From contig NC_012881.1 in assembly GCF_000023445.1 (NCBI RefSeq), forward strand, positions 191,501 to 255,500: DNA of 64,000 bases, written 5' to 3'. The stretch's first letter is position 1. Each line of letters begins with the position of its first letter. The stretch is from Maridesulfovibrio salexigens DSM 2638. GTDB taxonomy: Bacteria > Desulfobacterota > Desulfovibrionia > Desulfovibrionales > Desulfovibrionaceae. The notes under the pieces are model-generated. The model was given only the letters and a program-made list of their open reading frames with translations. It ran no database searches and had not been told where the DNA came from. Both the position numbers and the translations under genes were made by a program. This document shows positions 4,353-6,017 of the stretch, piece after piece.

Positions 4353-4532
4353 TTTTTGGAATCCCGATCAGACTTCGCTCTCAGCCCAATTAAAACAGGG
4401 GACAATTTAAAAGGAAAGTCCGGTTTTATTAGTTTGGAACGGAGAATTTGTCAAAAAATACTGTTATTGACAGACTATCATCATGCAAGTACTGATTTTG
4501 CTTGTTTATGCATGTTTTTTTAAGGAGATTTT

Positions 4533-4583
4533 ATGTTTATGAGATCATTAGAGAATGCACTGCAAGTTACCGACAAAAGGTAG
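4533..4583 (+). CDS. Possible 16-residue leader peptide upstream of rsgA
   Basis: A short reading frame, MFMRSLENALQVTDKR then TAG, preceded by an excellent ribosome site (TAAGGAG, 4521-4527). Its last five codons are the left arm of a long-range RNA stem whose right arm is at 4720-4732, so translation would melt that stem. This arrangement resembles translated leaders that control downstream structure. No regulatory codon run is evident. It is unsupported by homology and could be chance. Confidence 0.4.
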   Translation: MFMRSLENALQVTDKR

Positions 4584-4732
4584 CAAGCTGGTAGCAGAAT
4601 GATCTGGTTCTGCCTTGGCAGAACATTCCTATTCTATCCAAGGGACATTTCTGTTTCCTTTCCGGCTTACGCCGTACCGGAACTCTGATTTGAGTTCCGC
4701 CTCTATTGCTGTACCCAATTTTTGTCGGTGAC
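4566..4732 (+). promoter_or_regulatory. Structured RNA or palindromic element upstream of rsgA
   Basis: Terminal arms GTTACCGACAAAA (4566-4578) and TTTTGTCGGTGAC (4720-4732) pair with one mismatch, and the stem can extend inward through GGTAGCA with TGCTGTACC. Inside are a perfect hairpin GTTCTGCC-TT-GGCAGAAC (4608-4624), a competing hairpin using GCAGAA at 4594 with the same TTCTGC, a CCGG-CCGG hairpin (4662-4680) and GGAACTC-TGATTT-GAGTTCC (4679-4698). I do not recognise it as any known riboswitch. It is either a leader RNA of rsgA or a small mobile palindromic element. A further imperfect stem is at 4777-4814. Confidence 0.5.
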
Positions 4733-4904
4733 ATACCATAATCTGTGATTCATGACCCATATGTATCATTCAGGTTGTTGGACAAGTGCGTTTTATTGAA
4801 TTTGTCCGCCCAACAGATACATTCAAGTGAACATTTCTGAGTCGTGGCGGTTTAGCAAATGCAGAATCGTTATGTTTCAGTTTATTAATAAATGGTAACA
4901 CCAA

Positions 4905-6017
4905 ATGATGAATATTTTAAAATTGGCAGAAAGCTTATCAAATCAAACAAAACTCAAAGCAATGGGCTGGTCCGACTTCTTTCAGGAAAAAGTCTCTGGC
5001 GCTGATATCCCGGCAAGGGTCGTAAGCGTGAACAAAGATATCTTTCTGGTGAGTCAGGGAGTTGATGATGCACAGGTCAGACTTTCAGGAAAAGTACGCC
5101 ATAAATCAGGCACGGATTCTGAAAATTTGTTTCCTGTTATCGGCGATTGGGTGCTTTTACGGGATGCTGTAATCGATAAGGTTCTACCCAGACGCAATGC
5201 TCTCTCGCGCGGAGCTGCTGGGGGACGCGGTAAAAGTCATGGCGCTGCTATGAAAGAGCAGGTTATGGCTGCCAATCTGGATACGGTGTTCATTGTTTGC
5301 GGTTTGGACCGCGATTACAATGTCCGGCGTATCGAGCGTTATCTGACTTTGGTTTATAATTGCAATTTATCACCGGTAGTCGTCCTGACAAAGGCTGATT
5401 TACATGAAGACCCCCTTGAGTGTGTGGACGAGGTAGAATCTGTTGCTTTCGGCGTTCCTGTGCATCTCGTTTCTGCTGATGACGAAAGCGGGGTTTTGGA
5501 GCTGGAGCAATACTTGTCCTCGGGCAAGACCGCTACCATGATAGGTTCCTCCGGAGCTGGTAAATCTACACTCTTGAACCGCTTGTACGGCAACTCAGTG
5601 CAGCAGACAGGAGCTGTCAGCCAGAGTGTGGGCAAAGGCAGGCATACCACAACAGGACGTGATATGATTGCCATGCCGCAAGGAGGTTCTTTGATTGATA
5701 ATCCGGGTATTCGTGAAATTGCGTTCTACTCTGAAGACGGAGGAGTCGAAAGCTCCTTTGCTGATATAGAGGATTATGCCCGCTATTGCAGGTTTTCAGA
5801 TTGCGATCACTTGAACGATCCCGGCTGCAACGTGCTGCAAGCCGTAGAGAACGGTGATCTTTCTACGGAAAGACTGGAAAGCTATCGCAAAATGAAGCGA
5901 GAGCTAGATTATATCTCACAGCGACAGCACAAAACTGCCGACCGCATCGAAAAAGAGCGCTGGCGCGATGTCGCTATGAAGATCAAAGTCGTTAATAAAA
6001 ATTGGAAAAGGAGATAG
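4905..6017 (+). CDS. rsgA: Ribosome small-subunit-dependent GTPase A
   Basis: Circularly permuted GTPase that helps the last steps of 30S subunit maturation. Of 370 residues, the N-terminal OB-fold region covers about 30-100. The G motifs occur in permuted order: G4 TKAD near 163, G1 GSSGAGKSTLLN near 213 and G3 DNPGIRE near 265. The zinc site at the C-terminus is visible as CRFSDCDH followed by DPGC. Two ATG codons stand in tandem at 4905 and 4908 and neither has a good ribosome site. It is a stand-alone gene with a long, structured upstream region and its own terminator. Confidence 0.94.
   Translation: MMNILKLAESLSNQTKLKAMGWSDFFQEKVSGADIPARVVSVNKDIFLVSQGVDDAQVRLSGKVRHKSGTDSENLFPVIGDWVLLRDAVIDKVLPRRNALSRGAAGGRGKSHGAAMKEQVMAANLDTVFIVCGLDRDYNVRRIERYLTLVYNCNLSPVVVLTKADLHEDPLECVDEVESVAFGVPVHLVSADDESGVLELEQYLSSGKTATMIGSSGAGKSTLLNRLYGNSVQQTGAVSQSVGKGRHTTTGRDMIAMPQGGSLIDNPGIREIAFYSEDGGVESSFADIEDYARYCRFSDCDHLNDPGCNVLQAVENGDLSTERLESYRKMKRELDYISQRQHKTADRIEKERWRDVAMKIKVVNKNWKRR

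Follow-up and report, generated by a model that had tools for sequence, protein, structure and literature searches.

A uORF-containing leader upstream of rsgA2 in Desulfobacterota: a candidate ribosome-sensing translational attenuator

In Maridesulfovibrio salexigens, a second rsgA gene (rsgA2) lies behind a strongly folded leader of 372 nt, in which a short upstream open reading frame (uORF) extends into the left arm of a long-range helix. The preferred reading, held at a probability of roughly 0.6, is that this leader belongs with translational attenuators such as toiL and ermC and that RsgA would be switched on by a ribosome pausing near codon 7 of the uORF. A translated-leader attenuator or a new cis-regulatory RNA of rsgA had been suggested by a sequence-only reading of the locus, and the suggestion is supported by a uORF and arms that are conserved and co-vary upstream of rsgA2; conservation and covariation upstream of orthologous rsgA genes had been set beforehand as the check, and both were found. 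Many dispersed copies, the other outcome that would have counted against the suggestion, were not seen, the genome giving a single BLAST copy. No earlier account of such an rsgA leader came up in the open-access literature searched, and a report elsewhere is possible.

The leader and the gene behind it

The features of the locus are listed in Table 1. The arms, described earlier as enclosing about 140 bases, are complementary at 12 of 13 positions and spaced 141 nt apart, and the 16-codon reading frame with its strong ribosome site does reach into the left arm, as had been read from the sequence. Positions 4563-4736 are predicted to fold at -64.7 kcal/mol versus -40.3 (sd 4.1) for shuffled sequences (z -5.9, 0/200 equal), and the longer segment 4490-4910 also exceeds its shuffles (z -4.9, 0/100 equal). 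The minus strand of 4563-4736 is likewise stable (z -5.6), so that the strand is fixed by the uORF and the gene and not by the fold. An imperfect stem noticed at 4777-4814 appears in the predicted fold. A TTCTGC segment had been thought to pair with either of two GCAGAA copies, giving two exclusive folds; this either/or pairing exists here, one base off from where it had been placed (TTCTGC at 4608-4613, second GCAGAA at 4618-4623), but it is not a conserved switch, the hairpin being absent in two relatives (L008, L149) and altered in others.

Table 1. Features of the rsgA2 leader in M. salexigens; positions are those of the window, the whole 64,000-nucleotide stretch of DNA that was analysed
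Feature	Positions	Strand	Basis or remark
Putative sigma-70-like promoter, TTGACA-N17-TACTGA	4467..4495	+	5' of uORF; box pattern recurs in relatives
Shine-Dalgarno sequence of uORF, AAGGAG	4522..4527	+	Sequence; alignment of leaders
uORF, 16 codons, ATG at 4533, TAG at 4581-4583	4533..4583	+	Leader peptide MFMRSLENALQVTDKR
P0 5' strand, GATCATT, codons 4-6	4543..4549	+	Pairs with 4598-4604
uORF codons 7-9, GAG AAT GCA, conserved motif	4551..4559	+	Acidic codon 7, T-ending codon 8, V/A codon 9
P1 5' strand, GTTACCGACAAAA, uORF codons 12-16	4566..4578	+	Left arm; pairing and covariation
P0 3' strand, AATGATC	4598..4604	+	Partner of 4543-4549
P1 3' strand, TTTTGTCGGTGAC	4720..4732	+	Right arm; pairing and covariation
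P2 5' strand, TACCAT, predicted anti-Shine-Dalgarno	4734..4739	+	Directly 3' of P1; position co-varies with rsgA2 Shine-Dalgarno region
P2 3' strand, ATGGTA	4892..4897	+	Overlaps rsgA2 Shine-Dalgarno; covariation
rsgA2, circularly permuted GTPase RsgA, 370 aa, predicted regulated gene	4905..6017	+	PF03193; TIGR00157

RsgA2 and the canonical RsgA of the same genome, which is 39% identical, are both assigned as RsgA by Pfam (RsgA_GTPase) and by NCBIfam (above the TIGR00157 cut-off). Intact RsgA2 is encoded in 8/17 genomes of the genus, and one further genome carries a decayed copy. Among 30 RsgA2 genomes checked, RsgA2 is the sole match above the TIGR00157 cut-off in 18, and one more holds two RsgA2-type copies; since RsgA2 is frequently the sole RsgA, it is probably a working RsgA. 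In a tree whose root is not fixed, RsgA2 and a separate lineage, RsgA3, form two distinct, fully supported groups, RsgA3 adjoining a Bacteroidota sequence and the RsgA2 group taking in two rows without the leader. A third RsgA class of the genus (L026, L028, L031, L033; L232) occupies its own long branch; in L232, the third-class rsgA stands behind a short ORF with a Shine-Dalgarno (SD) sequence but without the motif, and behind a small gene with a CENCG start.

Several loci of rsgA2 type are incomplete. The decayed copy of the genus (L032, L034; G153:C6) contains stops and stands behind the end of a LacI-type regulator gene, which by eye resembles the upstream neighbour of an intact rsgA2 in another genome (G093). 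In L214 (G231:C1:1993000-1995100), the leader directly precedes the last ~88 codons of rsgA2, and this locus, judged from its sequence, is an internally deleted rsgA2 with the leader retained. L036 (JAFLJT010000358.1) retains the 3' half of the leader, with the end of an unrelated gene in place of the uORF half; the arrangement, to go by these letters, is a deletion or an assembly join.

Conservation of the uORF and covariation of the helices

All eight intact rsgA2 genes of the genus are preceded by a uORF with an SD sequence that begins 255-375 nt upstream (peptides e.g. MLMRSLEIVPHVADNG). A wider scan, covering named genomes (best 80 loci) together with family, order and phylum, yielded at least 75 leaders, of which 69 were left after near-identical ones had been dropped; they include members of the Desulfobacteraceae, Desulfobulbaceae, Desulfocapsaceae, Desulfarculaceae, Desulfolunaceae and Desulfatibacillaceae. 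The distance from uORF start to gene start is 253-469 nt in these 69, and the uORF starts are ATG (53), TTG (11) and GTG (5). A putative promoter (TTGACN-N16-18-TANNN[AT]) is found no more than 130 nt from the uORF in 43/82 leaders, where 1.04 would be expected after shuffling, with the -35 box beginning at a median of -64 relative to the uORF.

Comparison of these leaders shows the uORF to be conserved. Under a strict rule (SD, 13-26 codons, D/E at codon 7, V/A at codon 9, at most 560 nt from the gene), a uORF was present at 69 of 85 RsgA2-clade loci, some of them near-duplicates, versus 3/1700 shuffles, and at 0/38 deeper RsgA relatives and 0/20 canonical or third-class rsgA loci of the genus. 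Among the 16 loci missed by the rule, eight have a leader by eye, one of these (L133) without a start codon, and the other eight have no recognisable complete leader, that is, none or half of one. An acidic codon 7 occurs in 69/69 leaders (GAT 45, GAG 20, GAA 4), a figure that is partly by construction, since the first 44 leaders were picked from a list of SD-ORFs with an eye on the motif and six were set by hand; the strict-rule count and the matches at other genes are the fairer measures of motif conservation. Codon 8 ends in T in all 69 (CTT 42, ATT 18, others 9) and codon 9 encodes V (56) or A (13), the source leader having a divergent N-A form where L/I-V is usual. The residue at codon 8 varies (L, I, D, N, S or A) despite the constant third base, which by comparison of the leaders points to a nucleotide constraint at that site. 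No run of codons for one amino acid is conserved in the columns of the uORF peptides.

In P1, a strongly covarying helix, the 3' half of the uORF is joined to a site that lies ~150-190 nt further on and has its 3' end at a median of 183 nt from the uORF start. In a swap test, the pairing of arms from the same leader was compared with that of arms exchanged between unrelated leaders. Cognate P1 arms (codons 11-20) paired better in 65/69 leaders and in 40/42 sequence clusters, at -26.1 versus -19.2 kcal/mol (Wilcoxon p 1e-11), and cognate and swapped arms were alike in two control pairings, codons 1-11 with the P1 3' site (p 0.26) and codons 11-20 with the ribosome-binding site (RBS). Each paired position of P1 is occupied by 3-6 pair types. 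With a wider search window, the pairing frequency rises at codon 12.1, from 42 to 76 of 83 leaders; a sharper onset at that codon (13 versus 77 of 83) was discarded as partly a window-edge effect of the search. In eight Maridesulfovibrio-type sequences, P0 is paired in 98.2% of cells, with two of seven pairs changed on both sides, and P0, P1 and two hairpins taken together show six pairs changed on both sides (0/500 shuffles as many; 0-3 when slid), in a set in which one row (L007) ends before its P1 3' strand. The comparison thus shows P1 to be a conserved helix.

A second helix, P2, joins the segment directly 3' of P1 to the Shine-Dalgarno of rsgA2. The cognate segment was the better one in 46/69 leaders (14.09 cognate versus 12.44 swapped, p 2e-5), a result that applies to P2 as redefined to the segment adjoining P1 after a first, looser window had failed (p 0.18); for a control segment 28 nt further on, the cognate was better in 30/69 (p 0.89). 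By this comparison, the RBS region of rsgA2 is held in a conserved pairing. For a candidate third helix, P3, between uORF nt 0-33 and the start region from -8 to +18, the best of 15 window choices gave a swap p of 0.007, which loses significance after correction, and a shuffle p of 0.0002; two of the 15 choices passed the swap test. RNAalifold found almost no common fold in the type-B alignment (-6.0 kcal/mol), the probable cause being poor alignment of the middle hairpins. A four-segment hairpin switch, glimpsed by eye, is not put forward. A hairpin followed by T5, as in a terminator, was seen in 4/83 leaders, and control through transcription termination was rejected on this count.

Other genes behind the leader

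With a model built from the sequence of the uORF alone (R1, 48 sequences), 247 genomes of the order and 345 of the phylum were scanned. In the order, R1 gave 55 matches at E<=1e-3: 37 precede rsgA2, as assigned by coordinates and with many of these leaders having served to build R1, one precedes the decayed rsgA2 of G231, 14 precede rsgA3 and/or a GNAT N-acetyltransferase gene, two lie inside a long ORF (G205, G202) and one is partial (G101). The phylum gave 10 matches at the same threshold, five at rsgA2 (the source leader included), one at a GNAT gene (G069) and four partial ones (G417, G471, G445, G410), of which G417 is without a leader. The source genome holds one additional weak, partial match (E 0.022). 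Matches at third-class rsgA genes (G154, G140, G155, G117) cover the SD-start part alone and were not counted.

Among the 14, GNAT is the first gene behind the leader in eight (L215, L217, L218, L221, L223, L224, L226, L227) and is a fragment in L229; a GNAT start is seen by eye ahead of rsgA3 in L219 and L220, and rsgA3 follows the leader in L216, L222 and L225. The GNAT product belongs to the Pfam GNAT family, with 4zbg and 4rs2 as its best solved relatives and no equivalog above the cut-off, and is presumably YhbS-like. The uORFs of these leaders have 18-19 codons (e.g. LRTTSLDLVVLVAGESRGR). In the comparison of helices and folding, a set of 14 was used that includes L233 (E 0.005) and leaves out L229; a GGTTG-type P1 is found at +176 to +184 in 9/14, e.g. 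TGGTTGCCGG/CCGGCAACCA, and a P2-like pairing with the SD in some, e.g. CACTCCTT/AAGGAGTG in L219, both being recognised by pairing alone. In L220 (G144:C27), L219 and L233, a GNAT start and then rsgA3 stand behind a single leader, an arrangement suggestive of an operon and of a functional tie between this GNAT and RsgA.

We hold more tentatively, at somewhat less than even confidence, that the leader is a widespread Desulfobacterota module, present on at least two non-sister RsgA lineages and on GNAT genes, which would sense the state of the ribosome through a pause at the acidic codon 7 and control ribosome maturation.

Ribosome position and the regulatory reading

Folding was predicted with a ribosome on the uORF by deleting all RNA as far as 16 nt beyond the first nucleotide of the codon in the P site. 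Over the 69 leaders, the RBS (-15 to +5) was unpaired with a mean probability of 0.368 when no ribosome was present and 0.484 when codon 6 occupied the P site, dropping back to 0.39 with the ribosome at codons 12-18, RNA predictions over 300-500 nt being noisy. When the uORF was shuffled, access stayed near 0.40 (gain -0.014), and shuffling of the leader middle left a gain of 0.052, under half. The start codon of rsgA2 behaved likewise (0.377, 0.599 and ~0.45; up in 34/42 clusters, p 9e-6), with a peak when the RNA was covered to nt 28-31 that was robust at the cluster level and at 25 C; the rsgA2 Shine-Dalgarno was still mostly paired when the start was predicted to be open, changing from 0.316 to 0.345 (p 0.1). 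Without a ribosome, the RBS is predicted to pair mainly with the 5' half of the uORF and the region from nt 170 on, and once P1 is broken with nt 60 onward. The predicted effect is small in the source leader, from 0.46 to 0.55 at codon 7 and 0.37 at codons 10-11. In the 14 GNAT/rsgA3 leaders, access went from 0.353 to 0.42, a rise short of significance (9/14 up, p 0.14), and then to 0.37 (p 0.03), a course of the same shape, and was flat when shuffled. These predictions agree with the earlier idea that the position of the ribosome may choose the fold.

Since the predicted optimum at codon 6-7 adjoins the acidic codon 7 and comes ahead of most of P1, we infer a ribosome pause near codon 7, and the leader could then act as follows. 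The transcript would begin shortly 5' of a uORF of 14-25 codons, and the leader would be closed without a ribosome or when ribosomes read the uORF through. In the closed state, P1 would hold the 3' half of the uORF, from codon 12 on, against the site ~150-190 nt downstream, P2 would tie up the rsgA Shine-Dalgarno with the segment directly 3' of P1, and P3 would engage the 5' half of the uORF with the start region of rsgA. A ribosome that pauses while codon 6-7 occupies the P site would cover this 5' half and remove P3, and in the Maridesulfovibrio form also P0, leaving most of P1, so that the rsgA start opens; a ribosome further along would break P1, and the freed strands would re-close the start. 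P3, the position of the pause and its direction as an on-signal are predicted from the folding. The pause would depend on the conserved acidic residue 7; an aspartate lies near the stall site in some drug leaders (ErmBL, cat-86, cmlA). The signal would be impaired translation, through drug-bound or defective ribosomes, and ribosomes in trouble would then yield more RsgA and, in some species, more of the GNAT acetyltransferase.

Alternatively, steady translation of the uORF without any pause could open the leader by coupling or reinitiation, so that rsgA tracks the overall capacity for initiation. Such coupling would suit the SD and ATG/TTG/GTG start found in all 69 leaders, which is partly due to how the leaders were found, and the location of P1 within the ORF, where every passing ribosome would melt it. 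It appears unlikely, however, given that 189-402 nt (median 237) separate the uORF stop from the start of rsgA, that predicted access is highest with the ribosome near codon 6-7 and lower further on, and that conservation is strongest at codons 7-9 and not by the stop. A feedback by RsgA itself, in which 30S subunits that are immature or lack RsgA pause in the first part of the uORF, whereupon the leader increases RsgA until maturation, would make sense of a leader on two separate RsgA lineages and of RsgA2 as the only RsgA in most genomes checked (18/30 single, one more with two RsgA2-type copies); it seems a little less probable again, as it leaves the GNAT genes with the same leader unexplained and the source genome also has a canonical RsgA.

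That the leader is an RNA-only element, a riboswitch or a protein-binding leader with an incidental ORF, is considered improbable. The strong structure, the covariation and the invariant third base of codon 8 with its varying residue are what such an element would show, but the frame and the start-to-motif distance are kept in 66/69 leaders, and in the 66 anchored ones the third codon positions are the most variable in codons 2-7 and 9-11 (0.62 versus 0.40 for the first and 0.45 for the second). Nor did Rfam release 15 return a match at gathering score in the window, the best sub-threshold match in 4440-4960 having 12.7 bits (E 1.1). A small palindromic mobile element, the alternative first raised for these long inverted arms enclosing internal hairpins, is rejected, being contradicted by the single BLAST copy of the leader (1 match at E<=0.001) in its own 4,289,847-bp genome and by the 52/55 R1 matches in the order (E<=1e-3) that precede an rsgA or GNAT gene.

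The attenuator reading has parallels in four systems: (i) in the topAI-yjhQP transcript of Escherichia coli, the toiL uORF pairs with the topAI RBS, which drug-stalled ribosomes unmask, and control is translational (PMC12121999); a short uORF, predicted pairing with the downstream RBS and translational control are thus common to toiL and the rsgA2 leader, whereas peptide, genes and phylum all differ, and a stall anywhere is thought effective in toiL, while in the rsgA2 leader one position is predicted best, with a covarying P1 beyond it; (ii) in ermC-type attenuators, a leader peptide has its own SD and pairings hide the RBS of the gene until a ribosome stalls in the leader (PMC6310831, PMC10219788), features shared with the rsgA2 leader, where the RBS-hiding pairings are predicted, although ermC encodes an rRNA methyltransferase and rsgA2 a 30S maturation GTPase, and the rsgA2 leader is long (253-469 nt between the two start codons in the 69 leaders) and without a known inducer; (iii) in Listeria monocytogenes, the HflXr gene, which likewise encodes a ribosome-associated GTPase homolog, lies under a 14-aa uORF in the switching leader rli80, which differs in acting by transcription termination with an RLR peptide (PMC6310831), terminators occurring in 4/83 rsgA2 leaders and RLR not being conserved among their uORF peptides; (iv) in Streptomyces coelicolor, the WblC/WhiB7 regulon brings one of two RsgA paralogs (SCO6149/SCO5211) and 16 GNAT genes into the response to translation inhibitors, parallel to the gene set of the leader, but under a transcription factor and with a uORF that precedes wblC, not rsgA (PMC7157823). 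By analogy with these four systems, translation stress is most likely the signal for the rsgA2 leader.

If this reading is true, translating ribosomes would set the RsgA level, their function feeding back directly on 30S maturation, and wherever a genome has RsgA2 as its sole RsgA (18 or 19 of the 30 checked) the leader would control a core factor. The leader module would then lie at the heart of a small regulon for ribosome stress, in which RsgA serves as a 30S factor induced by drugs or damage, and the occurrence of the leader on GNAT genes as well points to a shared response in an environmentally important phylum.
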